NCBI GenBank assembly: GCA_030041135.1
Contig: JASHOL010000469.1
Location: forward strand, 1-49,728
Source of the DNA: Streptosporangiaceae bacterium
GTDB lineage: Bacteria; Actinomycetota; Actinomycetes; Streptosporangiales; Streptosporangiaceae
Reading direction: 5' to 3'
DNA length: 49,728 nt
Part shown: in pieces, positions 24,787 to 48,969 of the stretch
Numbering within the stretch: the stretch's first letter is position 1
How the letters are laid out: every line of letters starts with the position of its first letter
Notes under the pieces: generated by a model
The model's database searches: none
Seen by the model: only the letters and a program-made list of their open reading frames with translations
What the model was told of the DNA's origin: nothing
Translations under genes and position numbers: made by a program

Positions 24787-25328
24787 GCCTGCCATGCCGG
24801 CCATTGCGAGATAGTGCCGCTGGGGCCGCCCTGAACGCGTATGTAAGCCTGATAGGTACGCGCCGTAAAAAGATGCTCCCCAGTCATACAAGTCCCTGGC
24901 GTTGTCATTAACCTTGAGTGCGCCGAGATGCGCGGTCGGAACGCCCTTGACCGGCACAGGAGCACGCACAGCTAACGCGGACGCCATAGCTGGACTGAAC
25001 GCAGCAATCGTTGCAGCGGCCCGATGTCGGCACCTCCAGAAGCCGGGTCCCCCGGAGCCGGGTCGGGCTAGGCTACGTTCTGTCGAATGCGCCAAATGCC
25101 GCAAAGAGGTTGCGCAGGTGGCCGTAGCACGAGCAAACTGGCCGAGATAACCAGGCGATAGTCTGGCGGAAAACATGGTTATGACCTGGGCAGACGTAAG
25201 TCAGGCGGGCAGTTCTGAAAGCGCCAGCACCTGGTTAGATGGGCGAGGGGAGCGTGTTCACAGGCACCGCGCTCCGCAGGGTGACACCGGCTAGCCCAGC
25301 AGCTGAGGAGATCATCGGGGCCGTCATC
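24787..25328. other. Intergenic region without a supported gene
   Basis: About 540 bases with somewhat lower GC in the first third. Listed ORFs here have no recognisable family. A 7-bp inverted repeat ATAACCA (25147-25153)/TGGTTAT (25176-25182) lies about 150 bases before the next start and may be regulatory. On the minus strand around 24790-24960 two overlapping frames look faintly protein-like and may be a decayed gene, but I cannot name it. Confidence 0.5.
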
Positions 25329-25868
25329 ATGTCAGACACGGACGCAGTAGTCAGCCAGGAGCAGGCTGTACCCGACGCCCCCGCGGTGGCCGGGCCCTCG
25401 CCTGTCGCGCCTGGCATGCCCGCGCCCGCTGTGCCCGCGCCCGCGGCCTCCGCGCCGATGGCTCAGCGGCCGAGCCTGACCGGGATGATCCACCACGTGG
25501 AGCTCTGGGTGCCCGATCTCGACCGGGCGATCGTCAGCTGGGGCTGGCTGCTCGGCGCACTCGGATACCGGCTGTACCAGGACTGGCCCGGCGGCCGGAG
25601 CTGGGGAGCGGGGAACTGCTACATCGTGGTTGAGCAGTCGCCGGCCCGCACCGCCAGCCGGCACGACCGACTCCGGCCCGGCCTTAACCACCTGGCCTTC
25701 TTCGCGGCGGATCGCGCGCACGTGGACGAGCTTGTCGCCGAGGCGCTGCTGCACGGCTGGAAACTGATGTTCACCGACAAGCACCCCTATGCTGGCGGAG
25801 AGCATCACTACGCGGCGTACCTAGAAAACTACGACGGCTACGAGGTGGAACTAGTCGCCGCGGAGTAG
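25329..25868 (+). CDS. VOC family (glyoxalase-fold) protein
   Basis: A 179-residue protein with a roughly 45-residue Ala/Pro-rich head (PVAPGMPAPAVPAPAASAP) followed by a single VOC unit: GMIHHVELWVPDLDRAIVSWGWLLGALGY, GLNHLAFFAADRAHVDELV and the terminal YLENYDGYEVELVA, with the expected His and Glu metal-ligand candidates. It may be a dioxygenase, isomerase or resistance protein. The ORF starts at 25239, but MSDTDAVV at 25329 is a likelier start. The core alone begins at the ATG at 25458 or 25485. Confidence 0.82.
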   Translation: MSDTDAVVSQEQAVPDAPAVAGPSPVAPGMPAPAVPAPAASAPMAQRPSLTGMIHHVELWVPDLDRAIVSWGWLLGALGYRLYQDWPGGRSWGAGNCYIVVEQSPARTASRHDRLRPGLNHLAFFAADRAHVDELVAEALLHGWKLMFTDKHPYAGGEHHYAAYLENYDGYEVELVAAE

Positions 25869-25883
25869 ATCAGTGCTCGGTTG

Positions 25884-26195
25884 TCACATCGTTCCCGTCG
25901 GTTCCTGGCCCCCGGCGCGCTCGACCGGACGTCGCATGAAGTAGCACATCATGTTGTCGCCCATGCCGACGCCCTCAATCGGCCTGATCAGGTCGTTGAT
26001 CCACGCCGCGCACGCGGACCGCTCGCCGCGGTCGCTCACGATCCAGCCGTCGGCGCCCATGACGTTCGCGGCGCGCAGCAGGCTGTGTACGCCGTCAAGC
26101 ACGCGTGACTTCGATCCGTCGGTCACCACACACGCCGCGGGCGCGGGCCCGACCGTATGCACCACGTATATGTATCCGTACTCCCAGGCGGTCAT
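25884..26195 (-). CDS. Small DUF4177-like protein
   Basis: A 103-residue protein opening with MTAWEYGYIYVVHT and containing LRAANVMGADGWIVSDRG and, near the end, MMCYFMRRP. This reproduces the DUF4177 layout: an initial WEY strand, a helix ending in LG.dGWelv, and a final strand ending in (K/R)RP. The function of this family is unknown. GAGGAG lies upstream of the ATG. It is convergent with the VOC gene and divergent from the aminopeptidase. Confidence 0.72.
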   Translation of the reverse strand: MTAWEYGYIYVVHTVGPAPAACVVTDGSKSRVLDGVHSLLRAANVMGADGWIVSDRGERSACAAWINDLIRPIEGVGMGDNMMCYFMRRPVERAGGQEPTGTM

Positions 26196-26413
26196 CAGCT
26201 CGTACTCCTCGGTATGGCGCTCAGGCAGGCCGCGGGTTCAGATCATCACAGTTAACCGACGGTCGGGAAGACTTGACGGCGTAGGACATCGACGATGGCA
26301 GCTAGCCGACCGAGGCCCGGCTGTCCGCCGCGCGACCGCCCGCACTTCACGGGCTGCCCCGCTCGCGGCTTCCAGTACAGTACGGGGCTGGACCGCGCAA
26401 GTGAGGGAGACCA

Positions 26414-27379
26414 GTGGAGACCAGGACGGAACTGTACCCGCCGACCGAGCCTTACGACTGCGGCATGCTCGATGTCGGCGACGGGCAGTTGGTCTACTGG
26501 GAGGCGCGCGGCAACCCCGAAGGCAAGCCGGCCCTGTTCGTGCACGGCGGGCCAGGGCAGGGGTGCACGCCGAGCATGGGGCGCGCCTTCGACCCTGACC
26601 GCTACCGGATCGTACTGTTCGACCAGCGCGGCTGCGGCCGTAGCACCCCGAACGTCAGCGATCCGGCCGTGGATTTGCAGACCAACACTACCGATTTCCT
26701 GGTCGATGACATGGAGCAGCTGCGGGAGCACCTGGGGATCAACCGCTGGCTGCTGTGCGGTGGCTCGTGGGGCTCGACGTTGATCCTGGCCTATGCGGAG
26801 CGCCATCCCGAGCGCGTGACCGAGATCGTGATCTCTGCCGTGACGACCTCTCGCCGATCGGAGATCGACTGGCTGTACCGTGGAGCCGGGCGGTTCTTCC
26901 CTGGCGAGTGGGACCAGTTCCGGGCCGGAGTCCCCGAGGCGGACCGCCACGAGAACCTCCTCGTTGCTTACGGTCGCCGGCTCGCCGATCCCGATCCGGC
27001 GGTCCGGTACGAGGCCGCCAGCAACTGGATGGCATGGGAAGACGCAGTGCTGTCGCTTGAACCGAATGCCAGAGCGTCGTCGGAGGGGCCGCCAACCGAT
27101 GCCATGGTGGCCTTCGCCAGGCTCTGTGCGCACTACTACTCCCACGCGGCTTGGCTGGAGGAGGGTGAGTTGATCCACTGCGCAGGCCGCCTGGCCGGCA
27201 TTCCGGGCGTGCTCATCCACGGCCGCCTCGACCTGAGCTGCCCGCTGGACACCGCCTGGGAGCTGGCTCACGCCTGGCCTGACGCCGAACTCATCGCGCC
27301 GGCCGACTCAGGCCACCGGGGCAGCGTGACCAAGCGACTGCTCTTGCTGGCTGCACTGGACAAGTTCGGCCCGCAGTAG
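26414..27379 (+). CDS. pip: Prolyl aminopeptidase (proline iminopeptidase)
   Basis: A 321-residue alpha/beta hydrolase of peptidase family S33. Signatures are HGGPGQGC (44-51), FDQRGCGRSTPN (69-80), the nucleophile elbow GGSWGSTL (Ser near 118), HGRLDLSCPL (Asp) and DSGHRGS (His). It removes N-terminal proline from peptides in the cytoplasm. The start is the GTG at 26414, with GAGGGAGA just upstream. The length is normal for bacterial enzymes. Confidence 0.93.
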   Translation: METRTELYPPTEPYDCGMLDVGDGQLVYWEARGNPEGKPALFVHGGPGQGCTPSMGRAFDPDRYRIVLFDQRGCGRSTPNVSDPAVDLQTNTTDFLVDDMEQLREHLGINRWLLCGGSWGSTLILAYAERHPERVTEIVISAVTTSRRSEIDWLYRGAGRFFPGEWDQFRAGVPEADRHENLLVAYGRRLADPDPAVRYEAASNWMAWEDAVLSLEPNARASSEGPPTDAMVAFARLCAHYYSHAAWLEEGELIHCAGRLAGIPGVLIHGRLDLSCPLDTAWELAHAWPDAELIAPADSGHRGSVTKRLLLLAALDKFGPQ

Positions 27380-27421
27380 CCGGCCGCAGCCCACGGTTGC
27401 AGCCCCGCCGCGGGACCACGC

Positions 27422-27427
27422 TACGGT
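27422..27427 (+). promoter_or_regulatory. -10 box of a probable leaderless LysE promoter
   Basis: TACGGT lies 6 bases before the ATG at 27434, and no ribosome binding site is present. A TTGCAG at 27397-27402 is a possible, widely spaced -35. Confidence 0.45.
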
Positions 27428-27433
27428 GGCGTC

Positions 27434-28072
27434 ATGTTCTCGGCCGCCGATCTCCTTGGGTATGCGCTCGCATCCTTTGTCATCATCGTTATTCCCGGCC
27501 CGAGCGTGCTGTTCGTGGTCGGCCGTGCCCTGGCTTACGGTCGGCGCACCGCGCTGGTTACGGTTGGCGGGAACGCGGTGGGCAACTACGTGGTTGCCGT
27601 GTTCGTGGCGGTCGGCATCGGCGCGCTCGTGCAGCGGTCGGAGCAGGCCTTCGTCGCACTGAAACTGGCCGGCGCGGCGTATCTGGTCTGGCTGGGGATT
27701 CAGGCGTTCCGCCGGCGCGGCAAGCTGGCGGACGCGTTCAGCACACCTCCACCGCCGCGCACCGGCAAGCGCGCGGCGCGGGAGGGCTTCGTCGTCGGAG
27801 TGACCAACCCGAAGGCCCTGATCCTGTTCGGGGCCGTGCTCCCGCAGTTCGTTGACCGCTCCGCCGGTGACGTGCCAGTTCAGATGCTGCTACTCGGGCT
27901 GGTGTCGATCGCGATCGGACTGATGTCCGACAGCTCGTGGGCGATCGCGGCGAGTCAGCTGCGAGCCTGGTTCGCCCGGTCCCCGCGCCGCTTCGCCGTC
28001 GTCGGCGGGGCCGGCGGACTGGCCATGATCGGCGTGGGGGTCACCGTCGCCGTGACCGGCCGCAGTACCTGA
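27434..28072 (+). CDS. LysE/RhtB family amino acid exporter
   Basis: A 212-residue membrane protein with six predicted helices and the LysE start motif VIIVIPGPSVLFVVGRALAYGRRTAL, followed by AGAAYLVWLGIQAFR and the middle signature GFVVGVTNPKALILFGAVLPQFV. The family exports basic or neutral amino acids or related metabolites. It appears leaderless and monocistronic, following the prolyl aminopeptidase by 54 bases. Confidence 0.93.
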   Translation: MFSAADLLGYALASFVIIVIPGPSVLFVVGRALAYGRRTALVTVGGNAVGNYVVAVFVAVGIGALVQRSEQAFVALKLAGAAYLVWLGIQAFRRRGKLADAFSTPPPPRTGKRAAREGFVVGVTNPKALILFGAVLPQFVDRSAGDVPVQMLLLGLVSIAIGLMSDSSWAIAASQLRAWFARSPRRFAVVGGAGGLAMIGVGVTVAVTGRST

Positions 28073-28488
28073 CCTGACCTCAGCGCACGCGGCGGCCAGG
28101 GCCAGCCGCGCCCAGTTCAGCTTTTCGCCGCTCACCGCCCGATCCGTCCGCGCGGCGTGCTCACTGGATGGTCGGTGGCCGCCTGGCAGGAGTGCGAAGG
28201 CCGCGCCCGTCGGGCCGCCGTTGGATTGGCTCAAACTGATTAAGGGCGCGTTGACGGATAGGCCGTCTGCCCGGCGCGGCGTCACTCTGCCTGCAGCCAA
28301 CGTCGCCGCATCCTGGCTCGGCCGGAAGTCATCCGGCCCGGAGGGATTGGCATTACGGTCGGCCGGAAATGGCGGCATTTGACTATCGTGATGCCGCCTT
28401 ACAAGGATCGGTTTGCTCGCCGCGTTCCGGCGAGGAACATGGATCAGCATCGAACGGCGGGCGACGCCGGTTCAGAAAGGATCTTGTT
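28073..28488. other. Leader/intergenic region with two hairpins before the secreted peptide gene
   Basis: No gene is supported. Two stem-loops stand out: GGCGGCAT/ATGCCGCC (28371-28378 and 28391-28398, 12-base loop) and CTCGCCG/CGGCGAG (28416-28422 and 28428-28434, 5-base loop). Both precede the peptide start at 28489 and could form a structured 5' UTR. The ORF listed from 28369 runs through these and is less likely to be translated upstream of 28489. Confidence 0.5.
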
Positions 28489-28680
28489 ATGAGGCTCATC
28501 CGCAGCGTCACGGTCATCGGCCTGGCGGGTTCTGCACTGACGGCCGGTGGCCTCGCCATCGGGGCGCTCACGGCGGCGCCGGTCGCGCTCGCCGGCCCGG
28601 TGTCGAACCCGACGGCGGTGGAGTACGCGGGGGCGGTGTCGAACCCGACCGCGGTGGAGTACGGCGCCCACACGGGCTAG
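28489..28680 (+). CDS. 63-residue secreted peptide precursor with duplicated 12-residue unit
   Basis: The ATG at 28489 has AAAGGA eight bases upstream. MRLIRSVTVIGL followed by a hydrophobic Ala/Gly-rich stretch and APVALA is a typical signal peptide; cleavage after ALA would leave about 28 residues. These contain GPVSNPTAVEYA and GAVSNPTAVEYG in tandem and a final AHTG. No family is recognised. The coding of a very short mature product by a near-perfect duplication suggests a structural, signalling or adhesive peptide. It is followed by the nitrogen-controlled ammonium transporter on the same strand, but has its own upstream region. Confidence 0.75.
   Translation: MRLIRSVTVIGLAGSALTAGGLAIGALTAAPVALAGPVSNPTAVEYAGAVSNPTAVEYGAHTG
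28594..28665 (+). repeat. 36-bp in-frame direct duplication
   Basis: Two 36-base units encode G(P/A)VSNPTAVEY(A/G). They differ at only a few bases, so the duplication is recent or under purifying selection. Confidence 0.8.
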
Positions 28681-28796
28681 CAACGGCCAGCGCGCACGGG
28701 GAGTAGCAAAGAGGCACAGCACCAGTCGGCCGCCCTGGGTGGGTACGGCACCGGGCGTAGCCTGGCGCGTCCGTCCCATCAACGGGCGGCCGATTG

Positions 28797-28885
28797 GTCA
28801 CGTTAAGAAACAAAGGTTTAACGCTGCCGAAGCGCTGCTGAGTCACCGTGCCTTCGGCGTAACGGCTGGGAAACGTGAGCGAAAC
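28797..28885 (+). promoter_or_regulatory. GlnR-like box cluster upstream of the ammonium transporter
   Basis: GTAAC-N6-GAAAC-N6-GAAAC (28859-28885) matches the actinobacterial GlnR pattern gTnAC-n6-GaAAC with 11-base periodicity. A second, weaker set GTCAC-N5-GAAAC-N6-TTAAC lies at 28797-28822 and includes the inverted repeat CGTTAA/TTAACG. GlnR activates ammonium uptake under nitrogen limitation, which fits the gene that follows. Confidence 0.7.
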
Positions 28886-28940: not shown

Positions 28941-30422
28941 GTGCTGGTCGCCGTTGCCTGGCTACCCGGCAGCCCTTCGCTTCAGCCTATGGGAGGCGGA
29001 GAGTTGGACCCGTACGCGAGTTTCCTCAGTCCAGGGGATAACGCCTGGCAGCTGACGGCGGCGACGCTCGTCGGGCTGATGAGCATCCCCGCGCTCGCCG
29101 TGCTGTACGGCGGGATCGTGCAGCGCAAGTGGGCCGTGAACACGATGCTGATGGTGTTCACGGCCTTCTGCCTGACCCTGATCGTCTGGGTGCTGTGGGC
29201 GTTCAGGATGGGGTTCGGATCACCCTGGATATCCACGTTCGTAGGTAAGCCGTCCGCGGTCGTCGGAGTGGCGGGCGAGCAGGCGCAGGCCGTCATCCCT
29301 TCGCTGAAGGGACTGATGCCGAGCTTCAGGTTCCCCGAGGGATCGCTGGTCTACTTCCAGTTCGTCTTCGCCGCGATCACCCCGATCCTGTTCCTCGGCA
29401 GCGTGATCGGCCGGATCAAGTTCAAGGTCTGGCTGATATTCGTCCCGCTCTGGATCACGTTCGCGTACGCCGTGAACGCGTTTCTGCTGTGGGGCGGCGG
29501 CTACTGGGCGGCCAAGGGCGCGCTCGACTACTCGGGCGGTTACGTCATCCACCTCGCTGCGGGCGTGTCGGGGTTCGTCGCCGCCGCCATGGTCGGTCCG
29601 CGTCTGGCCCGCGACCGGGAGAAGGCAGTCCCGAACAACCTGCTGTTCGTCGCGGTCGGAGCCGGCATCCTGTGGCTGGGCTGGAACGGCTTCAACGGCG
29701 GCGATCCGTACTTCGCCGGGGCAGACGCCACCGCCGCGGTCGTCAACACCAACCTCGCCACGGCGGTCGCGATGATGGCCTGGATCATCATGGACATGGG
29801 CTTCGGCAAGGACCGCAAGCCCACGTTCCTGGGCGGCGTGAACGGCATGATCTGCGGCCTGGTCGGAATCACGCCGGCCGCCGGGTACGTCAACGGCGTC
29901 GGCGCGATCGTCATCGGCCTGGTCGACTCGGTCGTGGTGTGGATGCTGTTTGCGTACCTGCCGCGCAAGATCTGGCCGTTCAACAAGGTCGACGACGCGC
30001 TCGGCGTGGTCTACACCCATGGGTTCGCGGGCCTGCTCGGCGGCCTGATGGTCGGCCTGGTCGCCGACCCGAAGATGATCGAGTACATCGGGATCGGCAA
30101 GGCACCGAGCGTCAGCGGCGCGGGCCTGTTCTACGGCAACGCGAGGCAACTGCTCATCCAGGCAGGCGCGGCCCTCACGATCATCGTCTGGGACGCCCTG
30201 GTCACCTATGCGATCCTGCGGATGATCAAGTTCTTCACGCCATTGCGGATGCCGGACGCCGAACTGCAGGTCGGCGACGCCGCCATCCACGGAGAAGTTG
30301 CCTATCCGGAGGAGGAGCCCGAGATCGTGCCCACTCCGGTGCTGGTAGGGGCAGGCCGGGGCGGCGACGATGGGTCCGGCGATCCTTTCCTTGGCGAGTC
30401 GCCCGACATCAGGAGCGCCTGA
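28941..30422 (+). CDS. amt: Ammonium transporter (Amt family)
   Basis: A large (up to 493-residue) Amt channel with eleven expected helices. The pore twin-histidine positions are visible: GGYVIHLAAGVSGFVAA (first) and VVYTHGFAGLLGG (second). It conducts NH3/NH4+ across the membrane. The ORF begins at a GTG at 28941; an in-frame TTG at 29004 (reading MDPYASFLSPGDNAW) is preceded at good distance by GGGAGG and is a strong alternative, as is the ATG at 28989. The C-terminal tail (about 55 residues) is acidic then Gly-rich. No glnK or glnD follows. Confidence 0.9.
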   Translation: MLVAVAWLPGSPSLQPMGGGELDPYASFLSPGDNAWQLTAATLVGLMSIPALAVLYGGIVQRKWAVNTMLMVFTAFCLTLIVWVLWAFRMGFGSPWISTFVGKPSAVVGVAGEQAQAVIPSLKGLMPSFRFPEGSLVYFQFVFAAITPILFLGSVIGRIKFKVWLIFVPLWITFAYAVNAFLLWGGGYWAAKGALDYSGGYVIHLAAGVSGFVAAAMVGPRLARDREKAVPNNLLFVAVGAGILWLGWNGFNGGDPYFAGADATAAVVNTNLATAVAMMAWIIMDMGFGKDRKPTFLGGVNGMICGLVGITPAAGYVNGVGAIVIGLVDSVVVWMLFAYLPRKIWPFNKVDDALGVVYTHGFAGLLGGLMVGLVADPKMIEYIGIGKAPSVSGAGLFYGNARQLLIQAGAALTIIVWDALVTYAILRMIKFFTPLRMPDAELQVGDAAIHGEVAYPEEEPEIVPTPVLVGAGRGGDDGSGDPFLGESPDIRSA

Positions 30423-47562: not shown

Positions 47563-48969
47563 TCACAGCATCTTCCGGTGCTTCAGGTAGGCCGCCAGGT
47601 CGTCGTAGGCACCGCCCTCGTTGGCAAACAGCGCGACGTTGCGGGCCGAGTCGAACCAAGGGGCGAGCGACGGCCTGACCTGCGCCGTGGCCGCAGCCAG
47701 GTCGTCCTGCCCGATCATCCTCGCCTGGCCGGAACGGGCCGAGTCCAGCAGCGCCAGCTCGGCCGCGGACTCGCAGACGTGGGCGATGTCCGCGGCCGAG
47801 TAGCCCTCGGTCATGGCCGCCAGCTTGGCCAGGTTGATCCCGGCCACTGGCCGGTCCTTCAGGTGGAACCGGAACACCGCCTCGCGGGCCTGCGGGTCTG
47901 GCGGCAAGACCAGGAGCGTCCGGTCCAACCGGCCGGGCCGGCGCAGGGCGCTGTCGACGTCCCACGGGAGGTTGGTGGCGGCCAGCACGAATACGCCGTC
48001 GTTACCGCCGGTCACGTCGTCCAGCTCGAGCAGCAGCTGGTTGACGGCGCTGCGCATGGGCGTGTTCCGCAGCTGACTCCGCTTCTGGCCGATCGCGTCG
48101 ACTTCGTCGAAGAACAGCACGCATGGGGCGTTCCGCCGGGCGACGGCGAACAATTCATGGATATTCCGCTCACTCGACCCGATGTACATGTCCACCACGT
48201 CGGCGAACGAGACCGCGAGGAAGTGGGCGCCAAGCTCGCCCGCAACGGCGCGGGCGATGAACGTCTTGCCGCAGCCTGGAGGTCCGTAGAGTAGCAGCCC
48301 GCCGCGCAGGCTCTTGCCGTAAAGCCTGCGCAGCTCGGGATTGCGCATCGGGGCGAGGAACGCCGCCTCGAGCCTGGCCTTGACCTCATTCAGGCCGGCC
48401 ACGTCGGCCAGGCGCAGCCGTGGCTTCTCCGCGTCGTAGGCGGGAGCCTCCCTCTCGTGCTCGTAGGCGGCGGACCCGTCCTGGTTCACGAACATCGGCG
48501 GCAGCAGGTCCCGCAGTTCGGCCTCGGCCTGCGCCCAGTTGAAGCCGCCTGCCGCGGCCCCGCCTGCCGCGGGCTGGGCCGTATCCAGGGGCGGCGCGTG
48601 GTCCGCGGGCTGGGCCGTATCCAGGGGCGGCGCCTGGTCCGCGGGCTGGGCCGTGTCGAGGGGCGGCACCTGGTCCGCGGGCTGGGCCGTATCCAGGGGC
48701 GGCGCGTCCACAGGGGCCGGGACTCGAATCTCTCCTGCGGACGCAGGCTCCGACCCGGCTAGCTCGGCCCGGCCGACCTCGGCGAGCATGCGCAGCGCCT
48801 GGACATTCGCCGGGTCCGCCTGCAGCACCGCCCCGAGGTGGCTGATCCCTTCCTCGCGCAGACCGGCGGTCATGAGCATGCTGGCGAGGTGCAGGCGGAG
48901 GCCGAGGTCGTCGGGTAGAGCCGCGACCGCCTTGCGGAGGCTCGCGATCACGGCGGGCTCGGAATCCAT
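47563..48969 (-). CDS. TPR-AAA ATPase
   Basis: A 468-residue protein. Residues 1-75 look like a TPR pair; 89-136 are a 12-residue repeat; 185-440 are one classical AAA module: Walker A GPPGCGKT (229-236), Walker B CVLFFDE (283-289), sensor-1 Asn in AATNLP, arginine fingers in LRRPGRLDR and a pore-loop YIG (262-264). The YIG loop implies threading of a protein substrate through a hexamer. The C-terminus ends in a helical piece (YDDLAAYLKHRKML). It resembles the VCP/Vps4/FtsH-core group but has no protease domain. First gene of an operon with a membrane TPR protein. Confidence 0.88.
   Translation of the reverse strand: MDSEPAVIASLRKAVAALPDDLGLRLHLASMLMTAGLREEGISHLGAVLQADPANVQALRMLAEVGRAELAGSEPASAGEIRVPAPVDAPPLDTAQPADQVPPLDTAQPADQAPPLDTAQPADHAPPLDTAQPAAGGAAAGGFNWAQAEAELRDLLPPMFVNQDGSAAYEHEREAPAYDAEKPRLRLADVAGLNEVKARLEAAFLAPMRNPELRRLYGKSLRGGLLLYGPPGCGKTFIARAVAGELGAHFLAVSFADVVDMYIGSSERNIHELFAVARRNAPCVLFFDEVDAIGQKRSQLRNTPMRSAVNQLLLELDDVTGGNDGVFVLAATNLPWDVDSALRRPGRLDRTLLVLPPDPQAREAVFRFHLKDRPVAGINLAKLAAMTEGYSAADIAHVCESAAELALLDSARSGQARMIGQDDLAAATAQVRPSLAPWFDSARNVALFANEGGAYDDLAAYLKHRKML
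48562..48705 (-). repeat. Four tandem 36-bp in-frame repeats
   Basis: The units encode (A/V)PPLDTAQPAD(Q/H), four copies in a row within the ATPase linker (residues 89-136). Near-identity of the copies suggests recent expansion and a likely length polymorphism between strains. Confidence 0.85.

Follow-up and report, generated by a model that had tools for sequence, protein, structure and literature searches.

A 63-residue, predicted secreted peptide with a tandemly duplicated core, probably belonging to a genus-restricted peptide family in Streptosporangiaceae

Is a short open frame that encodes little more than a signal peptide and a repeated 12-residue unit a true gene, and if so, to which family does it belong and what might its product do outside the cell? 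Small secreted peptides are easily overlooked in annotation, and the question is raised here by positions 28489-28680 (+ strand) of a 49,728-nucleotide stretch of Streptosporangiaceae DNA (the window), which is part of a 6.6 Mb draft genome estimated to be 91.9% complete with 7.9% contamination. Reading frame, codon usage and the presence of a family in sister species identify the frame as the gene of a 63-residue precursor, the translation being MRLIRSVTVIGLAGSALTAGGLAIGALTAAPVALA (signal part) followed by GPVSNPTAVEYAGAVSNPTAVEYGAHTG (mature part) and a stop. The ribosome binding site, AGAAAGGA, is seen directly at 28474-28481 (+), with AAAGGA placed 7 nt upstream of the ATG, and a Sec-type signal peptide of 35 residues can be read at 28489-28593 (+), the cut after VALA being set by eye. 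The peptide is therefore predicted, with good confidence, to be secreted. The sequence-only reading of this locus had described a good ribosome site, a clear signal peptide, a mature part of about 28 residues and a duplicated 12-residue unit, and it proved sound in each of these respects.

Spurious open frames are numerous in DNA of high G+C content, and the peptide region has no convincing homologue at the nucleotide level in related genomes, so a chance frame has to be considered. However, the in-frame codon score of 0.39, compared with 0.30-0.68 in five neighbouring genes, is equalled in just 3 of 611 wrong-frame open stretches of equal length, and the G+C content at third codon positions is 94%. 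Together with the ribosome site, the signal peptide and a core motif common to a family under purifying selection (see below), the codon score makes a chance frame most improbable, and the frame is very probably a real gene.

The mature part consists of two units, GPVSNPTAVEYA (28594-28629, +) and GAVSNPTAVEYG (28630-28665, +), after which only the tail AHTG and the stop codon follow. Both the sequence itself and its self-match show the units to lie head to tail. Each spans 36 nt, of which 31 are the same in both, and within the 27-nt core encoding VSNPTAVEY the sole difference between the copies, ACG against ACC, is synonymous. At an offset of 12 residues the self-match amounts to 10 of 16 positions, a value attained by at most five in a million shuffles that keep the residue composition; internal agreement of this degree lies far beyond what chance would give. 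The mature part is acidic (pI 4.5), has a gravy value of -0.15 and shows no hydrophobic stretch past the signal. A tandem repeat that also has a 36-bp unit (3.9 copies, 93% matches) was noticed elsewhere in the window, at 48567-48705.

The peptide matches no entry in Pfam or NCBIfam, in keeping with the earlier opinion that no known family fits, and its relatives are visible by synteny and weak profiles only. In a direct search the signal part weakly matches many unrelated proteins; the best weak match within the genus, in genome G002, is an intact short secreted peptide that carries WEYG close to the C-terminus, and a search with this peptide leads to matches in G004 and G007. Overall, the genus (g1) has eight other genomes, of which six encode a divergent secreted peptide of 57-61 residues, namely G001 (MKNVRTRIVVALASSAVLASGLSMAVAVASSGSSAVPVASGSPSGSGPAPNVTIIYP), G002 (MKIIRTLAACALAGSALVGGGLSLAAVASSSVAPAAAVAGVTPQVCPDGTTWEYGSCPTL), G003 (MKNIRTRVIVALASSAVLASGMSVAVVAVSSGSSGAVAVADGSSSGSPAPAVTVTDP), G004 (MKVVHTRIAIALASSAVLASGFGLTAFAASSASSAAPVLTASQSANQPCPNDTIIDYCSQG), G005 (MKTIRTLAACALASSALVASGFGLAVAATSSASATATVAASQASTPCRNVTWIEYCP) and G007 (MKVVRTRIAVTLASSAVLASGFGLTAFAASSASSAAPVLTASQSASQPCPNTVIIDYCTQS). 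Homologues in sister species, on whose existence the sequence-only reading had made itself depend, are thus present, if in divergent form. The mature part of most relatives comprises a Ser/Ala-rich spacer followed by one C-terminal core (NVTWIEY, NDTIIDY, DGTTWEY), and the family core [ND]-x-T-x-[IVW]-[DE]-Y is exact in G002, G004 and G005 and varied in G001, G003 and G007. A pair of cysteines, often enclosing the core, is present in G002, G004, G005 and G007, where the flanked core may possibly form a disulfide-closed loop. The dN/dS ratios of 0.22 (G004/G007), 0.12 (G001/G003), 0.24 (G002/G005) and 0.34 (G001/G004), three of which are rough owing to a synonymous distance above 1, indicate that the family is protein-coding and under purifying selection.

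Whether the window copy belongs to this family is a separate question, to which several lines of evidence contribute. When a profile is built from the six relatives alone, the window peptide comes out first in its own genome (E = 0.0056), the match spanning positions 1-41, that is, the signal part; the stretch LA-[GS]-S-A-[LV] of the signal peptide and the Gly that follows are common to all seven. A seven-member profile gives 2e-23, a value that is circular since this profile includes the window peptide. The gene lies between a VOC/glyoxalase gene and amt on the same strand, as its counterparts do in G004 and G007, in a stretch of about 3.1 kb out of 6.6 Mb. Its NPTAVEY fits the family core and is present twice in tandem. 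This core, defined after looking at the sequences, occurs anywhere in 23 of 9,181 frames of at least 45 residues in 795 kb of fetched DNA; among the 10 small ORFs there with a signal-like start and a ribosome site, four have it, and these are three relatives and the window peptide. To these can be added the spacing of the TTGAC element upstream. Against membership, the independent profile reaches a modest E-value, and it does so over the signal peptide, a part in which sequences readily converge; the core match was seen post hoc, with degenerate cores in G001 and G003 (NVTIIYP, AVTVTDP) and NTVIIDY in G007. Nevertheless profile, position, core and TTGAC spacing are four moderate and largely independent lines, which make common descent likely, and on this comparison we regard the window peptide as very probably a member of the family. 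The likeness extends over length, signal-peptide stretch, core, promoter spacing and, where visible, the place after the VOC/glyoxalase gene. In contrast to relatives with a single, mostly Cys-flanked C-terminal core behind a spacer, the window copy carries two tandem cores with neither cysteine nor Ser/Ala-rich spacer, an observable contrast within one family.

The range of the family appears narrow. With the seven-member profile, searched against 343 genomes of the taxonomic family plus 395 sampled from the class, matches of at least 78 bits among the limited set of candidates scored per genome fall only in this genus, in seven of its nine genomes, compared with less than 30 bits for the remaining matches in family and class, most of which lie inside long frames. 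As judged from these profiles the peptide family is genus-restricted, no other sampled genus holding it. In the 343 family genomes, searches for the exact motif and with the protein placed NPTAVEY in unrelated frames only. No relative came up when genome contigs, phages, plasmids and viral contigs were scanned with the window peptide or its mature part, and matches of the mature part to PDB sequences were insignificant. The genome-contig scan with the G007 peptide gave one match, 100% identical, which is probably the G007 genome itself. Four weak matches of the six-member profile, inspected as possible relatives, were rejected as unrelated, and small-ORF scans 5' of amt in 21 genomes revealed no amt-adjacent peptide.

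Upstream of the window gene, a likely promoter can be placed at 28379-28405 (+), 110 nt before the start codon; it combines TTGACT with TTACAAG, a weak -10 region. A consensus promoter scan listed none in this upstream region, so the call rests on comparison: TTGAC occurs 104-108 nt upstream of the start in all five relatives having upstream sequence, against a background of 26 TTGAC in 49.7 kb on the strand of the peptide in the window. The relatives' -10 boxes (TAACAAT, TAAAAT, TGACAAT, TTAAACT) are better than that of the window. The 5' leader (28405-28473, +) has hairpin potential in RNA folding (28405-28488, -35.1 kcal/mol, z = -2.2); the peptide leaders of G002 and G005 likewise fold better than shuffles (z -2.8 and -3.3), whereas no such stability is seen for G001 and G004. 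Downstream, a strong hairpin with 28-nt arms, 75% complementary, separates the peptide gene from amt at 28721-28798 (+), the fold of 28681-28810 reaching -65.2 kcal/mol (z = -3.8). It has no U-tract and was not listed by a terminator scan, and from its sequence it is possibly the end of the peptide transcript. No Rfam RNA was found anywhere in the window, the GlnR box region of the amt leader included.

A link to nitrogen limitation, which the sequence-only reading had brought in, was not borne out. The GlnR box, GTAAC-n6-GAAAC-n6-GAAAC (28858-28885), lies in the amt leader, downstream of the peptide; its part at 28859-28874 fits the published GlnR box definition (PMC5826061) and is the only perfect gTnAC-n6-GAAAC near the peptide gene, none being present in front of it. 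Similar sequence is found in the amt leaders of relatives, and the leader is conserved with amt. With the box being amt's own, another neighbour next to the peptide in relatives, and the hairpin in between, an amt-linked role in nitrogen metabolism was dropped. The peptide gene's own probable promoter and the downstream hairpin give no indication of joint control of peptide and amt, although read-through is possible. The start of amt itself is probably TTG 29004 behind GGAGGCGGAG and not the longer GTG frame start at 28941, and in relatives amt appears to begin at about the same place.

The constant downstream neighbour of the peptide in the six relatives is a gene for a 323-residue protein, and in G002, G004, G005 and G007 the order is VOC/glyoxalase gene, peptide, 323-residue gene; the VOC gene of G001 and G003 is either beyond the flank inspected or on a different contig. 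In G004 and G007 the peptide is on the contig and strand of amt. In the window, by contrast, amt is next after the peptide, and hydrolase and LysE genes lie between the VOC gene (25239-25868) and the peptide. The two genomes closest to the window at this locus, G006 and G008, are without the peptide there. G006 has about 250 bp between VOC gene and amt. G008, 86% identical to the window over 25066-26211, retains 70 bp of the LysE end followed by just 97 bp up to the conserved amt leader, implying that 745 bp with the peptide are missing. Neither genome yielded a copy elsewhere with the seven-member profile among the matches listed, these assemblies being incomplete (88% and 73%), and the weak six-member-profile matches inspected in them were unrelated. 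As far as these drafts show, the peptide would have been kept or regained within this clade only in the window genome, and its absence in G006 and G008 suggests that the gene may be non-essential or in the course of being lost. In G008 (L116 2953-3217, corresponding to window 26211-28827) the hydrolase gene is gone as well, and so is LysE except for the 70 bp of its end, a deletion-like pattern. An open frame of 103 residues, antisense to its neighbours, was seen at 25884-26195 (-), within the stretch that is 86% identical in G008.

What the peptide may do is less certain. The best explanation, put forward tentatively as a whole, is that the ORF encodes the precursor of a fast-evolving, genus-restricted family that is cut outside the cell, its cores acting as a signal. 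Exported through Sec, the precursor would be cleaved after VALA by signal peptidase I and at the flanks of both cores by extracellular proteases. This would free peptides of about 7-12 residues that work extracellularly, most probably as a short signal, the dose of which the 36-bp tandem duplication may have raised. We lean towards a signal role, itself short of an even chance in our analysis, because the layout of the precursor resembles that of Phr propeptides, among which are ones with tandem repeated pheromones (PMC11343458, PMC9765709), and because relatives have a constant neighbour protein. Shared with the Phr-type RRNPPA propeptides of Bacillota are the small size and the export of the precursor, the repetition of a short core inside it (PMC11343458, PMC9765709) and, in relatives, a following gene for a protein without an evident signal; however, they belong to another phylum with no sequence similarity shown, and their receptors consist of TPR repeats, unlike the relatives' neighbour, which is modelled as helical and beta-rich with no Pfam match. 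No TPR receptor gene was found beside the window peptide, which is hence not classed as an RRNPPA propeptide. Also against the explanation as a whole, no copy of the neighbour protein adjoins the window peptide, its one homologue being on another contig, and the peptide is missing from the locus in G006 and G008. In a review, quorum sensing in Actinobacteria is described as under-explored (PMC4748050).

Alternatively, the family peptide, once secreted, could act at the cell surface or wall, in assembly or adhesion, the tandem repeat adding binding sites. Surface proteins commonly have repeats, and the Ser/Ala-rich spacer of the relatives looks like linker sequence. However, neither a chaplin nor any other surface domain is matched in Pfam and no sorting motif is seen, and past the signal the peptide lacks a hydrophobic stretch, its gravy value being slightly negative, which leaves a surface role rather doubtful. 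Chaplins and similar secreted peptides from Streptomyces are likewise small, Sec-exported and actinobacterial, but they are hydrophobic and self-assembling, unlike this acidic, hydrophilic peptide, and neither Pfam nor NCBIfam gave a chaplin match. That the peptide is the precursor of a small toxin or bacteriocin would agree with its small size, secretion, fast change and restriction to one genus, and with the possible disulfide loop of relatives; yet the mature part is not membrane-like, no immunity or modification gene is evident nearby (a LysE-type exporter gene is present upstream), and PADLOC gave no hit. Amongst the signal, surface and toxin roles, a toxin is the least likely, given a mature part that is short and acidic and no evident immunity or modification gene adjacent; we consider it very unlikely.

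Decay offers an explanation of another kind, in which the partner was lost in the window lineage and the doubled, cysteine-free core reflects drift. The absence of the gene at the locus in G006 and G008, a partner that is not adjacent in the window, the lack of both cysteines and the weak -10 box would all be accommodated. An intact frame with its high third-position G+C, a gene-like codon score, and a repeated core in which the only change is a silent one speak against a relic, and we judge it unlikely.

If the peptide is a signal, the relatives' neighbour gene becomes a directly testable receptor candidate. Every one of the nine genus members, and G010 besides, has one or two copies of the 323-residue protein; the single homologue of the window genome is on contig C447, away from the peptide, 3' of an acetyltransferase-like frame. 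It has no match in Pfam, NCBIfam or PADLOC, and its PDB sequence matches are insignificant. The AlphaFold2 model (mean pLDDT 78.8, pTM 0.62) shows a helical N-terminal part, which at a guess might bind DNA, and a beta-rich C-terminal part. Foldseek relates it to M1 aminopeptidases at E about 1e-5, with TM-scores of 0.25-0.3 and an rmsd near 9 that make these matches too weak for assigning function. A peptide communication system new to actinomycetes, in which the secreted core is sensed by this protein as a novel receptor class and the window strain is a sender whose signal became doubled while the receptor gene next to it disappeared, would be a long shot. Genes for this kind of protein, about 320 residues long, were observed at L094 7195-8187 and 6147-7088 (-) and at L142 7582-8520 (-), often as two tandem copies.
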